Assembly: GCA_002868865.1 (NCBI GenBank)
Contig: PKUC01000109.1
Location: forward strand, 1-35,723
DNA length: 35,723 nt
Direction: 5' to 3'
Source of the DNA: Desulfuromonas sp.
GTDB taxonomy: Bacteria; Desulfobacterota; Desulfuromonadia; Desulfuromonadales; Geopsychrobacteraceae
In this document: piece by piece, positions 23,174-35,723 of the stretch
Layout of the letters: every line of letters begins with the position of its first letter
Numbering within the stretch: position 1 is the first letter of the stretch
Translations under genes and position numbers: made by a program
Notes under the pieces: model-generated
Database searches by the model: none
What the model saw: only the letters and a program-made list of their open reading frames with translations
Told to the model about the DNA's origin: nothing

Positions 23174-24397
23174 TTAACGGGTAATATTCCCGAGGTTCCA
23201 CATCGGCAAAAAGACCCCGAGGGCCAGCACGAGAACCATCCCGCCGATGATGACGATCATAATCGGCTCGATAGAACTGGACAGGCTCTTCAGATCGTAG
23301 TCCACCTCACGTTCGTAAAACGCTGCCACATCTTCAAGCATTTTATCGACCGCGCCGGTCTCCTCACCGACCGCAAGCATCTGCAGCACCAGGGGAGTGA
23401 ACATTCCGGTCTGCGTGGCACTCCGGGTCAGGGTGTCTCCCCTTTCGACACCGTTACGGATCTCCTCAATCTTCTCACCGACAAAAGCATTGTCCACCGC
23501 CCGCGCGGTAAAACCGAGGGCCTGGGTCAATGGCACTCCGGCGCTGTACCCCATGATAAAACCGCGGGAGAATCGCACCAGCGTTGAACGCAGAACGATA
23601 TCGCCCACCAGAGGAATTTTGAGCTTATAGCGATCCCACAGATAACCGCCACGCTCCGTCTTAACAGCCTGCCGCAGCCCGAAAAACGAGGAGAGCAGAA
23701 CCCCAAACACCAACGGCCAATACGTCAACATAAAATTGGAGACCCCAAGAATCATGCGGGTCGCTATCGGCAGCTCTGCTCCAGCACTGGCAAACACCTT
23801 GGCAAACGCCGGGATAACAAAAAGGCTGATGAACAGGATCGCAAACAGGATTGCAATGATGACAAACGTCGGGTAACGCAGCGCGGATTTGACCCGATTG
23901 ATGGTTTCTTTTTCCCGTTCAAAATAGTTGGAAAGCTGCAGAAACACGTCGTCGAGCTTGCCCGTTCCCTCACCGACCTGCACCATCCGGCACAGCAGCG
24001 GCGGAAACACCTTGGGGTGCGCGGCAAAGGCCCCTGACAGTTCCATCCCCGCTTCAAGATCGTCGATCACCTTGGCCAACGCTGTGCCCAGCGATTCGTT
24101 ACGGGCGGTCTCAACCAGCCCCGACAGAGCGCGGACCATCGGCACTCCGGCTTTGGTCAGGGTGTACATCTGCCGGCAGAACAGAATCAAATCATCCAGT
24201 CCGACCTTTTGCCGTCGATTCAACCTGAATCTCTGGCTGAGGGGCAGAGCGCTCTTGCCGGCGATTTCAACGATACTCACCGGAACCATCTGACTGGCCT
24301 GCAACTGGCTGGCAAGCGCATCGGCAGACGAAGCCTCAAGCTGACCTTCGTTCAGCGACCCGGCCTGATCTCGAGCTTTGTAGCGATAGTAAGGCAT
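23174..24397 (-). CDS. mshG: MshG, type IV pilus inner-membrane platform protein (GspF/PilC family)
   Basis: About 407 residues with the duplicated GspF architecture: two cytoplasmic T2SSF domains (about 60-190 and 265-390), each followed by membrane helices, three in all. Diagnostic phrases are FCRQMYTLTKAGVPMVRAL, MVQVGEGTGKLD and its repeat MLAVGEETGAVDKML. The protein is the membrane rotor or platform that couples the ATPase MshE to pilin addition. I use ATG 24397, giving the conserved MPYYRYKARD start, four bases after the mshE stop; a TTG at 24412 is less likely. Confidence 0.93.
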   Translation of the reverse strand: MPYYRYKARDQAGSLNEGQLEASSADALASQLQASQMVPVSIVEIAGKSALPLSQRFRLNRRQKVGLDDLILFCRQMYTLTKAGVPMVRALSGLVETARNESLGTALAKVIDDLEAGMELSGAFAAHPKVFPPLLCRMVQVGEGTGKLDDVFLQLSNYFEREKETINRVKSALRYPTFVIIAILFAILFISLFVIPAFAKVFASAGAELPIATRMILGVSNFMLTYWPLVFGVLLSSFFGLRQAVKTERGGYLWDRYKLKIPLVGDIVLRSTLVRFSRGFIMGYSAGVPLTQALGFTARAVDNAFVGEKIEEIRNGVERGDTLTRSATQTGMFTPLVLQMLAVGEETGAVDKMLEDVAAFYEREVDYDLKSLSSSIEPIMIVIIGGMVLVLALGVFLPMWNLGNITR

Positions 24398-24401
24398 CTG
24401 C

Positions 24402-26192
24402 TTAACCCGCAATCTCGTCTGGAGTCTGACTGGTCAGACCCGGCGAGGTATGAGCCGCAATGGAGGTCTCGTCGATCTGACCAGATATCCGCATCACCTC
24501 TTCAATACTCGTCACCCCCGACTGTGCCAGCAGTAACGTCTCTTGCGCCAGGCTGCTGAACCCTTTCTGCTGCTGTGCCAGCTCGGCAAAGTCAGAGCTA
24601 TCGTTGCGACGCAGCGCATCAGCGAGCTCAAAGTTCATCTCGAGCAGCTCAAACACACCGATCCGCCCAGAGTAGCCCGTGTTATTGCAGGAGGGACAGC
24701 CAGTCCCCGCGGTGAATCCAGTGGGGTCAAAGGATCGTCCCATCTTCAACGAGAAAGTGTCCAAAAAACTGCGTGCAGCCGAATCAAGGGTATCGGGCTG
24801 CTGGCAACCAACACAGACCCGGCGCACCAGCCGTTGCGCAAGCACGGCACGTAACGAGCTGGCGACAACATAGCCTTCGGTTCCCATCTCGATCAGGCGC
24901 AGTGCCGTACTAATCGAATCGTTGGTATGCAGTGTCGAGAGAACCAGATGACCTGTCATCGCAGCCCGCAAAGCGATATCACTGGTCTCCTTGTCGCGCA
25001 TCTCACCAACCATGACAATATCCGGATCCTGCCGCAGTCCGGCCCTTAAAACCCGAGCGAAATCGAGGCCGATTTTCGAGTAGACCTGAACCTGATTGAC
25101 CCGCGGCAGCCGGTATTCCACCGGGTCTTCAACTGTGATAATTTTTTTCTCTTCGTGGTTGAGTTCGTTCAGTGCTCCATAGAGGGTCGTGGTCTTACCG
25201 CTTCCGGTCGGGCCGGTAACCAGAACCAATCCGTTGGGTCGCCGCAGTTGCTGACGAAACCGCTTCAGCAGATAAGGAGACATGCCGACATGGTCCAGGT
25301 TCAATAAACCGCCGGACTGGTCAAGAAGTCGCATAACCACCGACTCCCCATACTGCAACGGCATGGTCGACAGACGGATATCGATGCTTTTCCCTTTAAC
25401 TCGGATATTGAAACGACCGTCTTGAGGCAACCGGCGTTCCGAAATATCCAGTCCGCAGACAAGTTTCAGACGTGACACCATCGCAGGGGCAATCCGCTTC
25501 TCCTTCATGATCTGCTCATGGAGCACGCCGTCGATCCGCTGGCGGATCCGCAAAACCTTCTCATCCGGCTCGATATGGATATCCGACGCGCCGACCTGAA
25601 TAGCGTCCTCAAACAACGAGCGAAGCAGCCGGACAACAGGGGCATCTTCGACATCTGTCGTTGCCAGAAGCTGATTGAGATTACTGTCTCCCTGAGAAAG
25701 TTCCTCACCGAGTTCCTCGGCAATGGTCACAATCTCCTGGGTTCTCCGGTAGACGGTGTCGAGAGTTTTCAACAGTTCGGTCTCGTTGACCACGGCGATG
25801 CTGATCTGCCGCTTGAGAATCTTCGTCAGCTCGTCATAGGCGTGAATATCGGTCGGATCAGCCATCCCCACCAGCATCCGGCCCGCTTCGAGAGACAGGG
25901 CAATTGTTCGGAACCGGCGTGCAGCGGTTTCCGGCATCAGGCGCACAGTATCGGGGTTGTAATGATAATGTTTGAGGTCGATAAAGGGGAGATTCATCTG
26001 GTCAGCGAGAAACCTGTAAAACTCCTGAGAGGTCAGAAATCCGAGATCGATCAGCGTGGCACCGAGCTTAGCTCCCGTCTTTTTCTGCATCGCCAGGGCC
26101 TGCATCAACTGATCTTCAGTGATTGCACCGCCACTGACCATCAGGTCGCCTATACGGATTTTTTTTCGCGGGGGAGCCTGTTCAAACGCCAT
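24402..26192 (-). CDS. mshE: MshE, pilus extension ATPase with c-di-GMP-binding N-terminal domain
   Basis: A 596-residue GspE/PilB-type hexameric ATPase. The N-terminal MshEN domain (about 10-140) keeps the two-motif pattern that binds c-di-GMP in Vibrio MshE: RIGDLM at 13-18 and KLGATL at 42-47 with downstream glycine and leucine positions. The catalytic half has Walker A GPTGSGKT at 327-334, the Asp box near VEDPVEY, Walker B DIVMVGEMRD at 391-400 and a histidine box HLVLSTLHT. A zinc tetracysteine is present (C460, C463, C499, C502). It drives MSHA pilus polymerisation at the inner membrane, and the MshEN domain implies that c-di-GMP promotes extension. GAGGA lies upstream of the ATG. Confidence 0.95.
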   Translation of the reverse strand: MAFEQAPPRKKIRIGDLMVSGGAITEDQLMQALAMQKKTGAKLGATLIDLGFLTSQEFYRFLADQMNLPFIDLKHYHYNPDTVRLMPETAARRFRTIALSLEAGRMLVGMADPTDIHAYDELTKILKRQISIAVVNETELLKTLDTVYRRTQEIVTIAEELGEELSQGDSNLNQLLATTDVEDAPVVRLLRSLFEDAIQVGASDIHIEPDEKVLRIRQRIDGVLHEQIMKEKRIAPAMVSRLKLVCGLDISERRLPQDGRFNIRVKGKSIDIRLSTMPLQYGESVVMRLLDQSGGLLNLDHVGMSPYLLKRFRQQLRRPNGLVLVTGPTGSGKTTTLYGALNELNHEEKKIITVEDPVEYRLPRVNQVQVYSKIGLDFARVLRAGLRQDPDIVMVGEMRDKETSDIALRAAMTGHLVLSTLHTNDSISTALRLIEMGTEGYVVASSLRAVLAQRLVRRVCVGCQQPDTLDSAARSFLDTFSLKMGRSFDPTGFTAGTGCPSCNNTGYSGRIGVFELLEMNFELADALRRNDSSDFAELAQQQKGFSSLAQETLLLAQSGVTSIEEVMRISGQIDETSIAAHTSPGLTSQTPDEIAG

Positions 26193-26218
26193 ATCGCTTA
26201 AGTCCTCATTCCTTTAAA

Positions 26219-27586
26219 TTACAAAACCGACAATCTGCCGCGCAGATAGTCCCGCACGTCCGGCCTTAGTCCCTCAAAAACCAAGGCCTGTCGATAAGCC
26301 TGTTTCGCCTGAACGGAATCGCCGATCTGTTCCAGTGCAATCCCACGCCCCATCCACCACAAGGGCCGACGGTTATCGACCTGCAGCAACTCCGTATACA
26401 GCAAGGCAGCCTCTGCAAAACGTCCGTTCTCCTGCAGCAGTGCCGCTTTTAGAGCGTGAAAGTCTGTCGCATCCGCCAGGGCAGGCTGCGGAGGCATCTC
26501 CAGAACGAGTAATGCCCGCTCTGCATCCCCAGCTGCGAACAACCACTGAGCTGACCGCATCGTCAAGGCAGGATGGTGGAGGTGAAGAGTCAACCCGGCT
26601 TCGATCACTGCGGTCACAGCCGGATTGCCATCGTTCAACTGCAAATCGATCAGGGCCAAACGCGCTTCGAGCAGGTCAGGAGCCTCCAGCAGGGCCTGCT
26701 CAAACTGATCCTGCGCATCGACACGATCACCGGCCTGCAGCGCGGCTACTCCCCGCTGATAAGCGGTGCGAGCGAGTTGCTCTGCCGTCGGAGCTTGACG
26801 GACCTTGGTCATGCTCGGTGCCGGGATATTTTCGATTTTAGCGTTGTCTTGACTGTCACCCGGGGTGAGCGTTCCTACCGTCTCCGCCTGAATTTCAGTG
26901 GCAACCACTGGCGCGGTCACCTGAAGCTGCATCCGGGTCAACTCGACCAGCAAACGCTGCCCGTAAAAATTATCCGCCGGGAGCACCAGCGACTTGACCT
27001 GCACCGCTTGCCGCAGTGCGACGTCAAGAGTTAGGTTTCCCTCGCTGTGCCGCAGATCAACATTATCGATCATCGCTCCCTGCAAGGGGTTCATCACCGG
27101 CAACTGTGCGGACATCCCCTCGAGAGAGATCCTCAGCTGACCCGATTCTTGATTTTGCTTCAGAGCAAAGCGGGGCATGCGATCAAATTCAAGCATCAGA
27201 CGCGCAGAACTGTTCGACTCAAACAGATCAACATTGAGCAGCCGGGCTTGTCGCCCGACCACCGCAAGCTGGTCAGCGGGTGGTTGTTCTTCACCCCCTG
27301 ACACAATCGGATGAGGAGCCATTCCGGTCTCCGCAACCGATCCTGCAGGAGAAACTGGACCGGACAGGGATCCAATTGGAGCAGACGGATCTGTTGGTCG
27401 TATCAGCAGAAGCAGCCCACCGGCAAGAAAGACAGTCAGTATCGCGACCACAAACAGGGTCCGTCGAACGGGCCGCGGGGAGGCAGGATTCACCTCATGA
27501 CGGGTCTCAGTGATGTCTGTCGGCAGGTCCCTCTCGGCAGCGCGCCGTTTCTCCAGGTCCTTCAGCATCTGGATAATCAGACTCAT
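26219..27586 (-). CDS. mshN: MshN-like TPR protein with AMIN-type domain
   Basis: A 455-residue protein anchored by one membrane helix (about 43-62). Its cytoplasmic N-terminus begins MSLIIQMLKDLEKRRA, a signature of MshN and GspB-like proteins. The periplasmic part contains a beta-rich AMIN-like domain (about 110-220), which may contact peptidoglycan or the secretin, and C-terminal TPR repeats (about 285-450). The open frame extends to 27673, but ATG 27586 is chosen since it overlaps the mshM stop by 4 bases (ATGA) and gives the conserved start. MshN probably works with MshM and MshL in building the envelope-spanning complex. Confidence 0.88.
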   Translation of the reverse strand: MSLIIQMLKDLEKRRAAERDLPTDITETRHEVNPASPRPVRRTLFVVAILTVFLAGGLLLLIRPTDPSAPIGSLSGPVSPAGSVAETGMAPHPIVSGGEEQPPADQLAVVGRQARLLNVDLFESNSSARLMLEFDRMPRFALKQNQESGQLRISLEGMSAQLPVMNPLQGAMIDNVDLRHSEGNLTLDVALRQAVQVKSLVLPADNFYGQRLLVELTRMQLQVTAPVVATEIQAETVGTLTPGDSQDNAKIENIPAPSMTKVRQAPTAEQLARTAYQRGVAALQAGDRVDAQDQFEQALLEAPDLLEARLALIDLQLNDGNPAVTAVIEAGLTLHLHHPALTMRSAQWLFAAGDAERALLVLEMPPQPALADATDFHALKAALLQENGRFAEAALLYTELLQVDNRRPLWWMGRGIALEQIGDSVQAKQAYRQALVFEGLRPDVRDYLRGRLSVL

Positions 27587-28506
27587 CGATAACCCCGCAA
27601 CACCAAGACCGTCACCAGCGCAACCAGCAGAATCAGTCCGCACTCCAGAAACACCCTTTGCAGACTGGCCCATGGTGCAGACGTCGATCCGGATCTTGCG
27701 TCGCCAACGGTATCGGCGACGGCAGCTTCCATAAGGGAGGCATCAACATCGCTGCGCCCCTTGCCATAAGCGGCCAGTAGTGCCTTGTGAGCCAGCAGGT
27801 TGATAATCCTTGGAACCCCGGAACTGGCAGCGTAAAGCAGACGGGTCGCAGCATCCTGAAAAATAGCGGTGCCAACATATCCCGCTGTCTTGAGTCGGTG
27901 TTCGAGATAGCCCTGCACCTCGGCCTGGGTCATCGCCGACAACGCATACGAAAAGGTGATCCGCTGACGCAGTTGGCGAAGCTCATGCTTTTCGAGACGC
28001 TGTTCAAACTCGGGCTGAGCGAAAAAGAAAATATGCAGCAGCTTCTCCTTTTCCGTTTCGAGATTGCTGAGCAGGCGCAGAGCTTCCAGTGTCTTAAAAG
28101 GCATCGCCTGGGCTTCGTCGATCAGAATCACCAGCGGTCGGTTGCGGTCGCGTAAGCGAATCAGCTCCTGCAGAATATCCTGATTCAACTGCTGCACCGT
28201 CGCAGTATCGGACAGGGTCAATTTCAGTTCGCTGACAATCGCCTGATAGAGTTCTTTGGGGGTAAGGAGCGGATTGGGCAGATAGACGGTTTCACAATCG
28301 GCTTGCAGGACCTTGAGCATCTGCCGGCACAGCAGGGTTTTTCCGGTACCGACTTCACCGATAACCCGGACAAAACCTTCACCATTACGCAGCGCCACAC
28401 GCAGTACATCGACCGCTTCCTGATGCCCACTGTAGCGGTAGTAATATTCGGTGTCGGGGGTCAGAGAAAACGGTTTTTCCCTGAACCCAAAGAACTGTTC
28501 GTACAT
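27583..28506 (-). CDS. mshM: MshM, ExeA-like AAA+ ATPase
   Basis: A 307-residue AAA+ protein starting MYEQFFGFREKPFSLTPDT, the hallmark of ExeA/MshM proteins. Walker A GEVGTGKT is at 50-57 and Walker B LVILIDEAQ at 125-133. One C-terminal membrane helix (about 284-303) is followed by a short basic tail. Related ExeA works with ExeB to insert the secretin through peptidoglycan; MshM probably does the same for MshL. It lies 28 bases after mshL and overlaps mshN by 4. Confidence 0.93.
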   Translation of the reverse strand: MYEQFFGFREKPFSLTPDTEYYYRYSGHQEAVDVLRVALRNGEGFVRVIGEVGTGKTLLCRQMLKVLQADCETVYLPNPLLTPKELYQAIVSELKLTLSDTATVQQLNQDILQELIRLRDRNRPLVILIDEAQAMPFKTLEALRLLSNLETEKEKLLHIFFFAQPEFEQRLEKHELRQLRQRITFSYALSAMTQAEVQGYLEHRLKTAGYVGTAIFQDAATRLLYAASSGVPRIINLLAHKALLAAYGKGRSDVDASLMEAAVADTVGDARSGSTSAPWASLQRVFLECGLILLVALVTVLVLRGYR

Positions 28507-28534
28507 CGTTTCGATGTCCGTTCTAATCAGAAGG

Positions 28535-30271
28535 CTATTGCTCGCCCTTCAACCACGACCGCTGCATCTGTGGGGAAAGAGTTTTGATCCGCTGTTGAGT
28601 CGCCTGCAGACTGTCGGTCCAATCCCGGCTACTGCGGATCACCTGCGGGCGCAGCAGAATCACCAGTTCGCTCTTGCTCGAAACCGATTTGGTATGACGG
28701 AACAGCCCGCCGAGAATCGGGATCTTGCTCAACACCGGGACTCCGGCTTCCTGCTCATCGAGGGTGTCCTGCATCAGGCCACCAATAACAACCAACTGCC
28801 CACTCTCGGCGTGGACGACACTATCCGACTCGCGAACCGTGCTGTATGCCACAGGAATCGACTGATTGACGCCAAACACATTGATCTCTTTGGTCTGATC
28901 GATCACCTCGCTGACGGTGGGGTGAATGTGCAGAGTGATCCGGCTCGCTTCATCAATCTGCGGAGTGACATCAAGGGCAATCCCCGAAAAGAACGGAGTC
29001 AGGGTGACATCGGTTTTGTTTGTTACCGAGGTGCCGGTGGTTGTATCACTGGAGATATCGGTCACAAAATACTCGTCGGATCCAACCTTGATCACCGCTT
29101 TCTGGTTATTAACCGTCGAAATCCGTGGGCTGGACAGCACCTGCACGTCACCCTGATTCTCGAGCATCTCGATAAACGCCTGGAAATCGTCGGTATTCAA
29201 CGCTAGACTGAACATTCCACCGAACGCAAGGGCATCGAGACCATCCGGCAACAGCTGGCCCGGTGCCAGATTACCTCTGTTGCCTGCGGTCACTGCCGGT
29301 TCCTGGGTCAACAGCGATCCACCACCGGTCTGGCCGATCAGCGCATTGGTCGTCGAGCCGTTTCCGGCAAGGGCCGACCAGTTGATTCCGGTCTGAAAAC
29401 CATCCGACAGGCTCACCTCGATGACTTTGGCTTCGAGAATGACCTGACGCTGCAAATTGCCCTGAATGGTTTTTAGATAATTATCGACCAGAGACAGCTC
29501 GTCCGGCATGGCCACAACCACAACCACTCCCGCCTGGGGCTGGACGATGACCTTACGTCCCCCGTCGTTGCCGATCAGGCTCTCGACCGCGCTGCGCAGT
29601 TCGCTCCAGAAATCAGCCGTCGATTCCGTTTCGATCCGGCTCCCCGAAACGCTTTCCGTCCTCTGGGACGAATCGCCGCCATCACTATCATCTCCCGACC
29701 CCTGGGTTCCCACCTGAGTAATCTGCCCCGAACTGACCCGGGTATGGGATGTCCCTTTGCGCACCAGGTTGAGATAGTTGACCTGAAACGTTCGCGACTG
29801 CAGTCCGACCGGCATCACCTGGTAAATGCTGCCCGATTTAACGTAGGGGTATCCGTAAACGTTTTTCACGACCTCCAGTACTTCAGCGACAGTGGTACTT
29901 TTCAGATCAACGCTGATCTCACCTGCAACATCGGGATGTACGACCATGTTGTCGCGAGTCCCTTCCACCAGGCTCATAAAAAACTCCCGGGCAGGGACCT
30001 GGGTCGCAGCAATATCAAAACGGGGTCCTTCAGATTCAGGAGCAGGGACGTACAGAGATTGAGTGGCGGGAATCAACGCCGATCGGATCGATGCGGGCGG
30101 TAACGGCGGCGCGGAACCTGTCACAACAGACGCGGGCCCGGCATCGTCAAAGGTCTTCTGAATATCATCCATCGGTTCTCCCCCGCGCGGAGGAGGGGCG
30201 CACCCTGCAGAGACGATCAGAACCACCAGAATCAGAGCAGGCAAGCAGTATGTTCTCACCAGTGAATGCAT
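28535..30271 (-). CDS. mshL: MshL, outer-membrane secretin of the MSHA pilus
   Basis: A 578-residue lipoprotein secretin. The signal sequence ends in a lipobox-like VSAGC with C24 as the lipidated residue. N domains occupy about 85-265, with the STTVAEVLEVVKNVYGYPY segment of the N0/STN type and a serine, glycine and aspartate-rich linker around 190-215. The secretin barrel region starts near QVILEAKVIEVSL and ends with SKIPILGGLF. It forms the gated outer-membrane ring through which the pilus emerges. Its ATG overlaps the mshK stop by one base (TAATG). Confidence 0.95.
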   Translation of the reverse strand: MHSLVRTYCLPALILVVLIVSAGCAPPPRGGEPMDDIQKTFDDAGPASVVTGSAPPLPPASIRSALIPATQSLYVPAPESEGPRFDIAATQVPAREFFMSLVEGTRDNMVVHPDVAGEISVDLKSTTVAEVLEVVKNVYGYPYVKSGSIYQVMPVGLQSRTFQVNYLNLVRKGTSHTRVSSGQITQVGTQGSGDDSDGGDSSQRTESVSGSRIETESTADFWSELRSAVESLIGNDGGRKVIVQPQAGVVVVVAMPDELSLVDNYLKTIQGNLQRQVILEAKVIEVSLSDGFQTGINWSALAGNGSTTNALIGQTGGGSLLTQEPAVTAGNRGNLAPGQLLPDGLDALAFGGMFSLALNTDDFQAFIEMLENQGDVQVLSSPRISTVNNQKAVIKVGSDEYFVTDISSDTTTGTSVTNKTDVTLTPFFSGIALDVTPQIDEASRITLHIHPTVSEVIDQTKEINVFGVNQSIPVAYSTVRESDSVVHAESGQLVVIGGLMQDTLDEQEAGVPVLSKIPILGGLFRHTKSVSSKSELVILLRPQVIRSSRDWTDSLQATQQRIKTLSPQMQRSWLKGEQ

Positions 30272-30639
30272 TACAAATGACTCCCTTTCTCGGCACCGTA
30301 AGGCGCAGAGATCATTTTCAAACCGGTTCCGGGCCGGCGCAGAACAACAGTCTTCTTGTTACGAACCAGAACAACCCGGTCGGCATCGACCTGGATCAGT
30401 TTATAGCCATCGATCCGGTCCCCAAGGCTCATGGCACGGTCATTGATAACGGCGACCGACCGATCGGCAGACAGCAGCACGGCGCTTAACCGCCACTCGG
30501 AGGTCTTCTCGACCGCCTTTTTTTCAACGTTCGAAGGCACATGACTCGGCCGCATCGGATCCTGTAATCTGGAAGCGCCGCTCACAACCGGCAGCGTCAC
30601 CAGCAGAATGCCTGCGATGATTAAAATCCTGTTAGCCAC
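30271..30639 (-). CDS. mshK: MshK-like periplasmic protein
   Basis: A 122-residue protein with an N-terminal signal sequence or anchor (about 1-20) followed by DPMRP, as in MshK. A small beta-rich C-terminal part carries LSAVLLSADRSVAVIND and the segment RVVLVRNKKTVVLRRP, like PilP- and GspC-type proteins that link inner-membrane components to the secretin. It starts with GTG at 30639, inside the 3' end of mshJ, with AAGGGG upstream. Sequence conservation is low, so the call rests partly on position between mshJ and mshL. Confidence 0.8.
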   Translation of the reverse strand: MANRILIIAGILLVTLPVVSGASRLQDPMRPSHVPSNVEKKAVEKTSEWRLSAVLLSADRSVAVINDRAMSLGDRIDGYKLIQVDADRVVLVRNKKTVVLRRPGTGLKMISAPYGAEKGSHL

Positions 30640-31294
30640 CGATCCACCCCTTCTCCAAACTTAAGGTATGTATCGTCACGCGAACCGTCGCCTTGGGATA
30701 GGTCTGCGTCTCGATCTCCAGATCATCCCACACCAGCCGTCGGGGCAGATCGTCGAGCGACCTCAGGTAGGTCAGAGTCGCCAGATAATCGCCGGAAAAC
30801 TCCATCTGCATGGCATGGCGATAGAGCGCAAGAGTCTGCTGATCGGTCGCCTGTGGCGAAATCTGCAGCGGCTCGGGGGCGAAGTTTTCCAAACTGACCA
30901 GGGTCAACTTCTTCTGCTTGTTCAGCAGCGCCTTGAGCAACTCTGGCATCTCCCGCGGTGAAACCAGATCGGCCACGTTTTCAGCCAGCGACAGACGCAC
31001 TCGCTCGTTTTCAGCAGTCAACACCGCGAGACGGTCCCGGTTTTCACGATCCGGGTCGAATCCCTTGCGCGCTTCAAGGATCGTTTTTTGCGCCGTCAGA
31101 TCGGCGATATCTGTCTGGGCTTGCAACAACTCCTGCTGCCCCTGACGGGCTTTTGCCAGTAGGGGCGTCGCGATCAGCGCATCCCACAGCACATAAACCA
31201 CTGCCGCACAGCAAAGCACCAACAACAGACGTTCCCGCAGCTGGCGCTGGTCATACCAGTGAATCAGGTCTGCAACGTTGAACGATTTCGACAT
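30632..31294 (-). CDS. mshJ: MshJ, PilO/GspM-like inner-membrane protein
   Basis: A 220-residue bitopic membrane protein: short cytoplasmic N-terminus, helix at about 21-43, coiled coil (about 48-110) and a ferredoxin-like periplasmic domain. The segment SLENFAPEPL and the ending VTIHTLSLEKGWIGG match MshJ, whose family often ends in this way. With the PilN-like partner it forms the alignment complex between MshI in the cytoplasm and the secretin. Start overlaps the previous stop by one base (TGATG); 3' end overlaps mshK by 8 bases. Confidence 0.88.
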   Translation of the reverse strand: MSKSFNVADLIHWYDQRQLRERLLLVLCCAAVVYVLWDALIATPLLAKARQGQQELLQAQTDIADLTAQKTILEARKGFDPDRENRDRLAVLTAENERVRLSLAENVADLVSPREMPELLKALLNKQKKLTLVSLENFAPEPLQISPQATDQQTLALYRHAMQMEFSGDYLATLTYLRSLDDLPRRLVWDDLEIETQTYPKATVRVTIHTLSLEKGWIGG

Positions 31295-31896
31295 CAGTAC
31301 TCCCCCGAAACCGATTCGAGGCTAAAGGTCACCTGTCCCGGCCGTTCTGAAAGCCGGGCCAACTTCAACCGAGAAAAGACCTGACCATCCAACACATCTG
31401 CAGACGCAAGCGTCTGTAAATAGAGGGGGATATGCTCCGGAGTAAGAGCCGCTCCGGACAACAGAATATCGTTCCCTCCTGCGGCCAGATGGATCTTTTC
31501 CAGCCAAAGCCCTTCGAGACGATGCCTCGCCAGGCCGTCAAGGATATCGAGGATGCTGGCGTTGATCTGCTCATCCCGCGATGAAAAATATCCCAGCATC
31601 TGATTCTGTGCTGCCAGCTTCTGCTCAGCCGTGGCGATATCCGCTTCAAGTTGCGCATCTTTTTGTGGCGCTGGATATTGTTCACTGAGCTGCACAACTT
31701 CGGCAGAAAGAAGATCCCGCTGTGACTGGAGAGAGGTCAACTCCTCAAGGCTGGCATTCAGTGTCCAGAAATCATAAAGACTGATAACACTCAACAGCCC
31801 GCACAAGAGTACAAAGAGAAATCCGACCTGCTTCAGATTCAGTGGTTGCGGTCTGTCGATCAGGCTGTCCTGATAAAGATTGATCTGCTGTCTCAT
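31294..31896 (-). CDS. PilN-like MSHA biogenesis protein (second MshI-type gene)
   Basis: A 200-residue bitopic protein starting MRQQINLYQDSL, the short N-terminal motif by which PilN-type proteins dock to PilM-type ATPase-fold partners. One membrane helix (about 24-42) precedes a coiled coil (about 47-105) and a small periplasmic domain with LEGLWLEKIHLA. In MSHA loci this slot between MshI and MshJ is often called MshI2. The start codon overlaps the mshI stop by one base. Function as PilM-PilN-PilO-like alignment complex is inferred from family. Confidence 0.82.
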   Translation of the reverse strand: MRQQINLYQDSLIDRPQPLNLKQVGFLFVLLCGLLSVISLYDFWTLNASLEELTSLQSQRDLLSAEVVQLSEQYPAPQKDAQLEADIATAEQKLAAQNQMLGYFSSRDEQINASILDILDGLARHRLEGLWLEKIHLAAGGNDILLSGAALTPEHIPLYLQTLASADVLDGQVFSRLKLARLSERPGQVTFSLESVSGEY

Positions 31897-32810
31897 CAGT
31901 GATGCTCCCGTCGCAAAGCACCGCCGATCGCAATCAGGGATCGGCTCACCTCGATCGGTGCGATATCATCAGGGATCGCCATCACCTCACTCAGACGTAA
32001 CTCTTCAACATGGGTCGGCAGATCAGCAAGAGCGGACAATAATTCTGTGACACCCTGGGTGGTCTGAGCCACAAGCAGGCGAGACACCAGCGGTAACTGG
32101 AAACCGCTTTCGCAGTAATCGAAGGTCCGCTGAACCTCCAGAACGATCGCTTCGAGCTGTCGTTGAAGAAGCTCTGCATCCTCCCTGCCGGCGCGCAGGT
32201 CTTTCATGCCGACACCGAGATAACGGGTGACGTACTGAACCCCCTCTCTGACAATCGTCAGCATGCCCCCTTGCTCTTCGAGATAAAGGATCGCTGTACC
32301 ACGCTCATCGCCCTGAAACAGTTCAGCGATATTGCGCAGTGCGAACTCCGCAATATCGATCGCCACCGGAACCAGTTCGGCCTGCCCCGCCAGCTCGATG
32401 TAGTGCTTGAGCATGGATCGTTTGGCGGCGACGGCAAACTCTGTCGGCCGACGGTCGCCGCCGAACGGCGTGACCTGAAAAACATCAATAACGGCCTCTT
32501 CGACAGGAAATTCAAGCAGGTCACGAATCTGCCAGCGTGCCGCCTCACGTTTTTCATCTTGAGGGAGTTCCGCCAGATCGAGTTGGACAAGTTGATAATC
32601 TGAGGGCGAGAGGATCGAGACGACATCAAGTTTCTGGCACCCTTGGCGCTTGATAACATCGCTGGGCGATTCTTCATCTGTCGCCACAAACAGCAACGTC
32701 GGAGCCCCCTGTTTATCGTGCCGCACACAGGCGACATCGAACCCTTTTGCCCCGTAGCTCAGGCCAATAACCCTGCTATCTCCTCTGCTTTTCCGACTAA
32801 AAAGGCCCAG
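31896..32810 (-). CDS. mshI: MshI, PilM-like actin-fold protein, probable CTG start
   Basis: A 304-residue soluble protein with a PilM/actin-like fold, cytoplasmic partner of the PilN-like protein. Family phrases are PSDYQLVQLDLAELPQDEKREAARW, DLLEFPVEEAVIDVF and the glycine-rich YLGVGMKDL. The usual start-codon rule would put the start at GTG 32726, but reading upstream to the stop at 32868 gives in-frame LGLFSRKSRGDSRVIGLSYG, just the expected MshI N-terminus with its first beta strand. No ATG, GTG or TTG exists in that stretch; CTG at 32810 has GGAGG five bases before it and is my choice. It heads the minus arm of the MSHA locus. Confidence 0.75.
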   Translation of the reverse strand: MGLFSRKSRGDSRVIGLSYGAKGFDVACVRHDKQGAPTLLFVATDEESPSDVIKRQGCQKLDVVSILSPSDYQLVQLDLAELPQDEKREAARWQIRDLLEFPVEEAVIDVFQVTPFGGDRRPTEFAVAAKRSMLKHYIELAGQAELVPVAIDIAEFALRNIAELFQGDERGTAILYLEEQGGMLTIVREGVQYVTRYLGVGMKDLRAGREDAELLQRQLEAIVLEVQRTFDYCESGFQLPLVSRLLVAQTTQGVTELLSALADLPTHVEELRLSEVMAIPDDIAPIEVSRSLIAIGGALRREHH

Positions 32811-33090
32811 CTCCGCCTCCGTATAAAAATAGAAACATTTCCTGAATTTGCTAAAATTACACGAAATTTAACCTTATTATAGGTCAATAATCAACAGAAA
32901 AAGGACAGCAACCCAGCAAAGACCACTCCCACAGAGGCAGTGAAAACTGGATTACAGGCCCTGTGCTCCAACGCGACCTCACAGAAAGACCAATCAGAAC
33001 CTTTTTTGTCACTTTTTAGGGCCAAAGAGGATTTAAGTATTGATTTTTAAGCAACAAAACCTTAAGTTAAAAAACTCATATACTTATATA
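32811..33090. promoter_or_regulatory. AT-rich divergent promoter region between mshI and the adhesin gene
   Basis: No gene is supported here. On the minus strand TATAAT at 32881-32876 is a perfect -10 hexamer about 65 bases before the mshI start, but no good -35 lies 16-18 bases upstream, suggesting an activator or a non-classical promoter. On the plus strand TATACT (33079-33084) or TATATA (33085-33090) could serve as -10 for the adhesin leader, again with a poor -35. The stretch is clearly richer in A and T than the flanking genes. Confidence 0.5.
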
Positions 33091-33192
33091 CCTTCTCCGA
33101 CAAGAGCAAACGCGGGGCAACCCGCGGACGCAGAGTCACGGGACCGCTGCAGCGTATTAGCTGCAGCGGTCAGCCGAGCCGCCGAAGAGAAG
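33091..33192 (+). ncRNA. GEMM-I riboswitch aptamer, cGAMP-type (A20) signature
   Basis: The core matches the GEMM-I consensus. P1 pairs 33092-33097 with 33187-33192 (plus two pairs inside a 2-base bulge). P2 is a perfect 6-bp stem (33111-33116 with 33121-33126) capped by the GNRA tetraloop GCAA. The conserved strands are GAGCAAAC (33104-33111) before it and GGACGCAGAG (33126-33135) after it. P3 is a perfect 12-bp stem (33142-33153 with 33160-33171), followed by AGCCGAGCCGCC as in the 3' core. The base aligned to G20 of Vibrio Vc2, which contacts the ligand, is A at 33105; A here is the feature of GEMM-I members that prefer 3',3'-cGAMP. The base aligned to A47 is 33132. It lies directly upstream of a giant adhesin gene. 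Confidence 0.88.
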
Positions 33193-33270
33193 ACGCCAAC
33201 TTGCATCCACCCTACGGATACAACCCCCCTTTGGGCAACGGTCTATCTAGTTGCACCCCTTGGGAAATAG

Positions 33271-33314
33271 AGCGTCTGTCGCGGCTGAAATACACGTCAC
33301 AGGCGCTTTTTTTT
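33271..33314 (+). terminator. Riboswitch expression-platform terminator
   Basis: A 9-bp stem (33271-33279 with 33299-33307, one G-T pair) is followed by a run of eight T, about 44 bases before the adhesin ATG. Two rival pairings would break it: the 3' arm can instead form a hairpin with 33315-33319 (T run in the loop), and the 5' arm 33272-33277 is fully complementary to 33191-33196 at the aptamer P1 end. A further hairpin (33233-33239 with 33250-33257) lies between aptamer and terminator. Confidence 0.8.
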
Positions 33315-33357
33315 GCGCCAATCACGCAGGTAGGCCACGCGCCAAAGAGGAGCATCC

Positions 33358-35723
33358 ATGCCTCAAACAACATCGACCGTGACCGTCAGTGCTGTATTTG
33401 GAAAAGCATTTATCAAACAGCCCGACGGAACACTGACACCGCTTCAGGCCGGGGATATCCTACCCGCTGGAACCGATATCATCGCAACTCCCGGGGGGCG
33501 TGTCGAGCTCGACTTCGGCAACGGGACAGCAGCAACGGTCCACCCTCTGGAGATGGTCATGCCGACCACCGCCCAAGCCGACGAACTCGGCACAGGCAAC
33601 ACAACAGTCGATCGCGGCGACAATACCATTTTAAGCGAGGGGTTCAATTCCAGCTCCACAGGCAGAATCGCCAGTGTCAGTCGCGCAGGATCGGGCAAAG
33701 ATGACGGCAACAACTTTGTCCGCATCATGCGCATCACCGAAGAGACCGACATTGCAACCCTCGGCTTTGACCCTCTCATCCGTGTCACCGAAATTGTCGA
33801 CGACGAAGCGCTGCCCCCCCTCGCGACGGAACCATCCAGCAACGAAAATCCATCAGCAGAGAACACAATCACCATTGAACCCCCTGCTGATACCGCCAAC
33901 CCCATACCCGTCCTGACAATCGATGATAGCTCCGTCGAAGAGGGCTCCGGCGTCACCTTCACCGTCACACTGTCAGAGTCCAGCCAAGACTTCCGTGTTT
34001 TCTTCTCAACCACGGTAGCGGGTTCAGCAGAAGCAGAGGATATCTCGCCCCTGGTGGTTAAAGATAGTTCCGGCGTTGTCATCCCTGTCAATACCGATGG
34101 CAGCTACACCGTGCCGGCCGGAGAAACTGGCCTGACAGTCACCGTCCCAACGGTCGACGATAGCGCCTATGAAGGCACCGAGACCTTTGAACTCACCGGC
34201 AAAACCGAGTTCATGTCCGGCGCCACAACCGCTACGGGCACAATAATCGATGATGGTACCGGCATCGAGGGCGATGATCCCGGTGACGACAGCGACGACG
34301 ATTCTCCAACCCTGTCGATCGACGATGTCACCGTCGCAGAAGGTGGCGGAGCAGTTTTTAACGTAACTGTCTCCGAAGCCGAAGCCCCCTACAACGTCAC
34401 ATTCAACACATCGGTCACCGGCAGCGCCGAAACAGACGATATTTCGGCCCTGGTCGTCAAGGACAGCTCAGGCACAATCATTCCCCCCAACACCGACGGC
34501 AGCTACACCGTCCCCGCCGGAGAAACCGGCCTGACTGTCACCGTCCCGACCATTGATGACGAGACCCCTGAAGGTAATGAAACCTTTGAACTCACCGGCA
34601 AAACAGAGTTCATGGCAACTGAGGCCGGTGGAACGGGAACCATTATCGATTCAACCCCGTCAACCATCAGTGTCGACAAGGTGACCGTTGTTGAGAGTGC
34701 CGGTCTTTCGGCTCAAACCTTCATCATCAGTGCGCCGGGTGGACTGGTCTCATTGACCGTCGCAGGGACAGTCATTGCCGTCGAAAACCTAGTCAACAGC
34801 GGCACCACTCCGATTTCCATTGCCACCACCGAAGGTCAGATCACCATCAACGGCTACAACACCACAACTGGCGTTGTCAGTTACGATTATGGCCCGACAG
34901 GAGCCCGTAAGGATCACAGCGGCGGCGATACCTCCATTCTAGACAGCTTTACCCTCTCGGTCACAGATTCCGGTGGAGGAACCGTTACCGACAATCTCGA
35001 CATCATGATCACCGATACGGCTCCTGTCGCCAGTGCCGATATCGACAGCGTCACTGAAGATGCCGCCGATGAAGCCGATGACAGTGATGCCACCACCACC
35101 AATATTCTCGGTAATGTCATCACTGGGATCAGTGGAGGAACAGCCGATACTTTAGGGGCCGATTCGACCACCGTCACCGGTGTTGCGGCAGGAACTCCGG
35201 CCAGTGCCTCAGGCAGTGTCGCAAATAATGTTTCAGGGACCTACGGAACCCTCAACATCGCTGCCAACGGCGGCTACACCTACACCCTCGATAACACCAA
35301 TGCCACGGTCAACGCCCTCGATGCCGGAGACTCGTTGACCGATACCTTTACCTATACGGTCACGGACGCAGATGGCGACACCAGTAGCGCCACCGTCACC
35401 ATCACCGTCTCGGGAACCGAAGACGCACCGACCATCACAGGAACAAGTAGCGGGTCCGTCCAGGAGGACACCACCCTCTCCACCGGCGGCAGCTTGAGTA
35501 CCGCAGATGCCGACGGCGTCGATACGCCGACTTTCACGGCGCAGGCCGGAACGGCGGGGACCTACGGAACGTTCACCCTCGACGCGGCCGGAGCCTGGAC
35601 CTATACCCTTGATAACGCCGCGGCCCAGACCATCGCCGGGGGAGCGGCGGTCGATGAGACCTTCACCGCCACCGCAACGACGGCCGATGGAGAGTCCGTC
35701 TCTCAGACCGTCACCATCACCGT
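33358..35723 (+). CDS. Giant surface adhesin with LapA/BapA-type retention module, partial at 3' end
   Basis: The frame is open from ATG 33358 (GAGGAG five bases upstream) to the window edge, 788 codons without a stop. Residues 1-110 form a retention module as in LapA/BapA-type adhesins (SAVFGKAFIKQPDGTLTPLQ, then AGDILPAGTDIIATPGG), which keeps the N-terminus plugged in the outer-membrane exporter. Two Calx-beta-like repeats follow (about 182-300 and 319-430), split by an Asp-rich linker at 302-318 that could bind calcium. After a segment of unclear type (about 435-560) come VCBS-type repeats with SGTYGTLNIAANGGYTYTLD and AGTYGTFTLDAAGAWTYTLD. There is no N-terminal signal peptide, consistent with type I secretion by a C-terminal signal outside the window. 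Expression is probably controlled by the GEMM-I riboswitch upstream. Confidence 0.88.
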   Translation, partial: MPQTTSTVTVSAVFGKAFIKQPDGTLTPLQAGDILPAGTDIIATPGGRVELDFGNGTAATVHPLEMVMPTTAQADELGTGNTTVDRGDNTILSEGFNSSSTGRIASVSRAGSGKDDGNNFVRIMRITEETDIATLGFDPLIRVTEIVDDEALPPLATEPSSNENPSAENTITIEPPADTANPIPVLTIDDSSVEEGSGVTFTVTLSESSQDFRVFFSTTVAGSAEAEDISPLVVKDSSGVVIPVNTDGSYTVPAGETGLTVTVPTVDDSAYEGTETFELTGKTEFMSGATTATGTIIDDGTGIEGDDPGDDSDDDSPTLSIDDVTVAEGGGAVFNVTVSEAEAPYNVTFNTSVTGSAETDDISALVVKDSSGTIIPPNTDGSYTVPAGETGLTVTVPTIDDETPEGNETFELTGKTEFMATEAGGTGTIIDSTPSTISVDKVTVVESAGLSAQTFIISAPGGLVSLTVAGTVIAVENLVNSGTTPISIATTEGQITINGYNTTTGVVSYDYGPTGARKDHSGGDTSILDSFTLSVTDSGGGTVTDNLDIMITDTAPVASADIDSVTEDAADEADDSDATTTNILGNVITGISGGTADTLGADSTTVTGVAAGTPASASGSVANNVSGTYGTLNIAANGGYTYTLDNTNATVNALDAGDSLTDTFTYTVTDADGDTSSATVTITVSGTEDAPTITGTSSGSVQEDTTLSTGGSLSTADADGVDTPTFTAQAGTAGTYGTFTLDAAGAWTYTLDNAAAQTIAGGAAVDETFTATATTADGESVSQTVTIT
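34039..34614 (+). repeat. Pair of near-identical Calx-beta-like coding repeats
   Basis: Copies at 34039-34215 and 34438-34614 are spaced 399 bases apart (133 codons). The two 59-residue stretches are identical at 50 positions, including the phrase SYTVPAGETGLTVTVPT. They belong to the adhesin reading frame and probably arose by recent in-frame duplication. Confidence 0.9.

Follow-up and report, generated by a model that had tools for sequence, protein, structure and literature searches.

The window analysed here, a stretch of 35,723 nucleotides, is contig PKUC01000109.1 of a Desulfuromonas sp. (assembly GCA_002868865.1, forward strand). Near its 3′ end lies a GEMM-I riboswitch aptamer, followed by an intrinsic terminator and by the start of a large gene for a putative adhesin of the LapA/BapA type (Table 1). 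The initial annotation, made from the sequence alone, had proposed a GEMM-I riboswitch sensing 3′,3′-cyclic GMP-AMP (cGAMP) rather than cyclic di-GMP (c-di-GMP) in front of a giant adhesin gene. The terminator, which sits between the aptamer and the start codon of the adhesin gene, was absent from that description.

In a cmscan search of the window with Rfam 15, the covariance model (CM) of RF01051 (c-di-GMP-I/GEMM-I) was matched over its full length (model positions 1-87) with 48.8 bits (E 9.2e-7), where the gathering score is 35 bits. This was the sole riboswitch reported for the window; the Rfam variants c-di-GMP-I-GGC and c-di-GMP-I-UAU (RF03167/RF03168) were not reported. The aptamer was found again in a whole-genome search (E 1.6e-8) as one of five GEMM-I aptamers in the assembly. 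P1, a P2 capped by a GNRA loop (GCAA, 33117-33120) and a long P3 are all present, so that the annotation of a GEMM-I riboswitch with its conserved parts is borne out by the model search. The same is true of the A at the position equivalent to G20 of Vc2, on which the CM alignment and direct reading agree. At this position, all four remaining GEMM-I aptamers in the assembly carry a G. The window aptamer shares with the Vc2 and Cd1 members of RF01051 the full-length model match, the three helices, the GNRA loop and the G21-C46 core, while it differs from them in A20, in a G48-C81 pair in place of A48-U81, and in an A at model position 78. No convincing promoter was seen in a scan directly upstream, where TATACT (33079-33084) might serve as a -10 element but a clear -35 element is missing.

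Table 1. Features of the riboswitch-adhesin locus (positions in the window; MFE, minimum free energy)
Feature	Position	Strand	Details and basis
GEMM-I aptamer (RF01051)	33095-33186	+	cmscan; search of the own genome
P1 helix	33092-33192	+	CUUCUC 33092-33097 / GAGAAG 33187-33192; MFE fold, sequence check
A20 (Vc2 numbering; G in most GEMM-I)	33105	+	CM alignment (model position 11), direct read
G21-C46 and C22-G45 pairs, with P2	33106-33131	+	33106-33107 GC, 33130-33131 GC; ordinary core
G48, at the base of P3	33133	+	pairs with C 33180 (model position 81); G-C instead of A-U
3′ core strand	33174-33182	+	CCGAGCC-G-C; CM alignment; predicted ligand-binding C92-equivalent 33182
Predicted antiterminator, two nested 6-bp helices	33177-33286	+	AGCCGC 33177-33182 / GCGGCU 33281-33286; AGACGC 33191-33196 / GCGUCU 33272-33277
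Intrinsic terminator	33269-33314	+	AGAGCGUCUGU 33269-33279 / ACAGGCGCUUU 33299-33309; U8 33307-33314; -19.1 kcal/mol; folding
Start of large adhesin gene	33358-35721	+	ATG 33358; 788 amino acids in the window; runs off the contig (35723)

The 5′ arm of the terminator begins 76 nucleotides past the 3′ strand of P1, and the two structures coexist in the MFE fold. The direction of control was assessed by folding a series of transcript lengths. For transcripts ending between 33286 and 33304, the predicted antiterminator is about 4-5 kcal/mol more stable than the fold with P1 closed, and its pair probability is about 0.95. It takes up the C92-equivalent cytosine 33182, and the binding pocket would therefore be destroyed. 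For ends from 33308 on, the aptamer together with the terminator is the lowest state (-91.2 versus -87.7 kcal/mol). An alternative ON-type terminator built from the 3′ strand of P1 was also worked out by hand (AAGACGCC with GGCGCUUU; a stem of eight positions, one of them mismatched, around a loop of about 100 nucleotides) and was rejected, the MFE fold preferring the local hairpin. As a separate observation, the sequence GGCGC-U8-GCGCC at 33302-33319 would allow the 3′ arm of the terminator to pair again with the downstream GCGCC, forming a hairpin with a U8 loop (-9.1 kcal/mol).

How does this arrangement compare with known switches? From 277 genomes of the class, 38 Geobacter cGAMP-type aptamers with terminators were gathered. 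In 37 of them the 3′ strand of the aptamer itself is used to form the terminator, and separating the two costs 5-26 kcal/mol; for the exception, L224, and probably for L219 as well, the script placed its cut at an early U run. By additive folding, the same separation costs 1.2 kcal/mol in the window. It is known that aptamer and terminator are mutually exclusive in the G. metallireducens pilM switch, which is ON, whereas in Cd1, which is OFF, the two can form together and have as their competitor an antiterminator that base-pairs with the C of the binding pocket (PMC9262584). Since its terminator coexists with the aptamer at a low separation cost, the window differs in its wiring from the proven cGAMP ON switches. 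In the predicted coexistence of aptamer and terminator, in the capture of the C92-equivalent by the antiterminator and in the OFF wiring that results, it resembles Cd1. Thus, the folding models indicate that the switch is probably OFF, in the direction opposite to that of Geobacter, where the terminator takes in the 3′ strand of the aptamer and the switch is ON.

The mechanism that I favour, with moderate confidence, is that an A20/G48-C81 GEMM-I riboswitch for cGAMP and/or c-di-GMP turns off a LapA-like adhesin of the type I secretion system (T1SS) kind by transcription termination. Without ligand, the nascent RNA would form the antiterminator, which opens the 3′ core strand of the aptamer including the C92-equivalent, and the adhesin gene would be transcribed. 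With ligand bound, the aptamer would stay closed, leaving the terminator hairpin free to form, and transcription would stop. Such wiring would match the OFF switch Cd1 from C. difficile, and I infer the same direction for the cell.

The A20 of the window is not a lone substitution; judged from the aptamers compared, it belongs to a coherent subtype that is confined to A20 and carries G48-C81. G48 is paired with C81 in 31 of the 31 collected aptamers that have it and A48 with U81 in 74 of 75 (44 of 45 A20 aptamers, 30 of 30 G20 aptamers), counts that are partly biased, as 21 loci were fetched by a pattern containing G48. The 48-81 pair closes P3 and corresponds to A42-U73 in the structure of the cGAMP riboswitch (PMC6274999). 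G48 is frequent among A20 aptamers, and its combination with G20 was found neither in the collected set nor, by reading of the lists, among the well-formed G20 matches of 136 genomes. The fetch with the G48 pattern finds the subtype in Desulfuromonas, Acidobacteria, Gemmatimonadetes and one gammaproteobacterial metagenome-assembled genome. Such recurrence across families and phyla argues against sporadic mutation. As far as seen in the literature within reach, which leaves out the primary GEMM-Ib papers, cGAMP binding by this subtype is apparently unreported.

The members of this subtype, which often have A78 as well, are spread over several phyla (e.g., L112, L119, L134, L138; L188-L208). Several loci in Gemmatimonadetes have an ON-like arrangement, with a terminator that overlaps the 3′ strand of the aptamer, and the downstream genes there include lipoprotein-like secreted proteins. 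In relatives, other A20 aptamers (L092, L106, L066, L067, L070, L108, L109) lie upstream of genes whose translations resemble regulators of the EAL/HDOD type and response regulators; a position before signalling genes would suit feedback in dinucleotide signalling.

A possible source of cGAMP was found elsewhere in the genome, where the initial annotation had suggested looking for a Hypr GGDEF gene. Two of the 24 GGDEF domains are Hypr-like; they have a Ser at the position of GacA Ser348, a GGDEF motif, and a His or Ser instead of Arg at the Tyr304 position, and the best PDB match of both proteins is GacA (6d9m), the Geobacter Hypr domain. The residues at the Ser348 and Tyr304 positions are given as marks of cGAMP synthesis (PMC6456294), and the two proteins are candidate cGAMP synthases on this basis. 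In addition, tandem G20 GEMM-I aptamers (L001/L002, C94:1015-1337, minus strand) lie a few kilobases from two adjacent GAF-GGDEF genes (L023/L024, C94:5326-6893, minus strand), one of which has a Hypr-like Ser as the base-recognition residue and the other an Asn.

The predicted product of the downstream gene has a LapA-like retention module, Calx-beta-like and cadherin-like domains and VCBS repeats. The retention module (NF033682) is borderline: the N-terminal match scores 42.1 bits by hmmscan, below the cut-off of 50, and 47.3 bits singly or 52.1 bits with its neighbours in the genome search, the last being above the cut-off. The retention module and the VCBS repeats agree with the LapA/BapA-type target that was first proposed, while its giant size is likely but seen from a gene cut by the contig end, beyond which the C-terminus lies. 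An LssB-family/LapB-type T1SS ATPase is encoded on contig C98 (948 bits), as expected from LapA/BapA-type systems. Unlike in those systems, no LapG-family protease (PF06035) was matched in the genome by a search that was positive in a Caulobacter control, and LapA-type release is therefore unsupported. LapD (PF16448) was not matched in the genome either, although the control genomes gave no match as well. From these domains the protein may function as an adhesin. A surface-protein gene under a cyclic-dinucleotide riboswitch has a precedent in cbpA of B. thuringiensis (PMC7423583); that switch responds to c-di-GMP in a Gram-positive bacterium, whereas the window has an aptamer of the A20 subtype and a T1SS-type adhesin in a Gram-negative context. 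A search for orthologues of the switch-plus-adhesin pair gave only two distant N-terminal relatives in the family and no named relative. When 14 other retention-module loci, from 14 further genomes of the order, were scanned over about 1.5 kb on each side, no GEMM aptamer was found.

Beside the adhesin gene lies a divergent operon (23174-32726, minus strand) that resembles an MSHA-type IV pilus cluster, with an MshL secretin, PilM/PilN-like proteins and a PilB/GspE-type ATPase carrying a c-di-GMP-binding MshEN domain. It also encodes an ATPase (27583-28506, minus strand) resembling the XrtA/PEP-CTERM-associated family, with a score of 218 bits where the cut-off is 324.5. The pilus cluster and the adhesin gene together look like an attachment island. 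On contig C98, the LapB-type T1SS ATPase (C98:21515-23596) is accompanied by a frame of 1532 amino acids containing VCBS repeats (C98:31486-31629), possibly a second adhesin or the remainder of a secretion locus.

Several observations weigh against the OFF switch as proposed, and one of them concerns the ligand. The Geobacter-type comparators combine A20 with a flipped C21-G46 pair (AATACTAAA...GGCGGAAAGCC), while the window has G21-C46. Compared with the Geobacter GEMM-Ib switches of pilM and pgcA (PDB 4YAZ), it has the A20 (A14 of 4YAZ) and a genome with Hypr-like GGDEF genes, but not C21-G46/U22-G45. The flip corresponds to C15-G40 in 4YAZ, which are contact residues (PMC7288161, PMC6274999); the search pattern was checked against the contact residues in these papers, and the flip is used here as a marker that may or may not be needed for cGAMP binding. 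With the flip missing, the true ligand may be c-di-GMP. The physiological ligand could thus be c-di-GMP, or both dinucleotides about equally, A20 merely widening the pocket of a c-di-GMP OFF switch or a dual switch; I regard this as a serious rival, if somewhat short of probable. The ordinary core suits it, and so does the report that the equivalent G-to-A change in Cd1 does not much alter c-di-GMP binding, position 20 being called a selectivity factor and no hard filter (PMC9262584). Furthermore, c-di-GMP is described as a possible ligand of cGAMP riboswitches, bound by way of a protonated adenine (Keller et al., as cited in PMC9262584), the genome has 24 GGDEF domains, and the neighbouring pilus ATPase has its MshEN domain. 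On the other hand, GEMM-I RNA with G20A binds cGAMP (structure 4YB1, PMC6274999; G20A biosensor, PMC11352751), and A20 aptamers have a G48-C81 subtype of their own while G20 aptamers keep A48-U81, which suggests a distinct selective regime. A20 is required for the cGAMP reading, yet it is no proof of cGAMP; by itself it does not single out the proven cGAMP class. Judged from sequence, the ligand may be cGAMP, c-di-GMP or both, with cGAMP slightly ahead because of A20 and the two Hypr-like cyclases, and the cGAMP claim of the initial annotation is plausible, not established. The narrower proposal that a cGAMP-sensing OFF switch, made of an ordinary GEMM-I core with A20 and G48-C81, represses the LapA-like adhesin, so that cGAMP would oppose lasting attachment, is tentative and rather doubtful. 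The mirror image of the A20 and G21-C46 combination also exists; L004 (C61:8578-8667, minus strand) is a GEMM-I aptamer with G20 and a flipped C21-G46.

The other adverse observations concern the soundness of the aptamer and the antiterminator. The CM score is the lowest of the five in the genome, the others reaching 65-79 bits, and two P3-base positions form non-standard pairs in Rfam scoring, as might be seen in a degraded or non-functional relic. This is very unlikely, given that G48, C81 and A78 recur together in unrelated genomes and that the helices are intact with a strong terminator downstream. In a control with 250 randomised downstream sequences, each retaining a terminator hairpin, 56 equalled the mid-length preference of the window and 5 its complete bistable pattern; the antiterminator exceeds chance by no more than a modest margin. 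Covariation support for it is nil, as no orthologous locus was found. Would the switch then be an ON switch through which cGAMP promotes the adhesin, as the initial annotation implied by tying cGAMP to irreversible attachment? The aptamer-overlapping terminators of Gemmatimonadetes members of the A20 subtype are in favour of this. However, Geobacter-type ON switches make their terminators from the aptamer 3′ strand, and the distant, coexisting terminator of the window does not have this form; an ON switch is improbable. With its non-overlapping terminator and OFF-type folding landscape, the window suggests that a link between cGAMP and lasting attachment, if any, is probably negative.

If the preferred reading is true and cGAMP or c-di-GMP turns the adhesin off, the signalling pathway would gain a negative arm, next to the GEMM-Ib riboswitches of G. 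sulfurreducens, which are reported to be of the ON type. Repression of the adhesin would agree with the published distinction of cGAMP, for transient particle contact, from c-di-GMP, for permanent biofilm (PMC6456294). The G48-C81 subtype, confined to A20, also provides a defined set of RNAs for the question of whether A20 alone is sufficient for a cGAMP sensor in an ordinary core. As a practical lesson, A20 by itself should not be taken to mean "cGAMP, ON".
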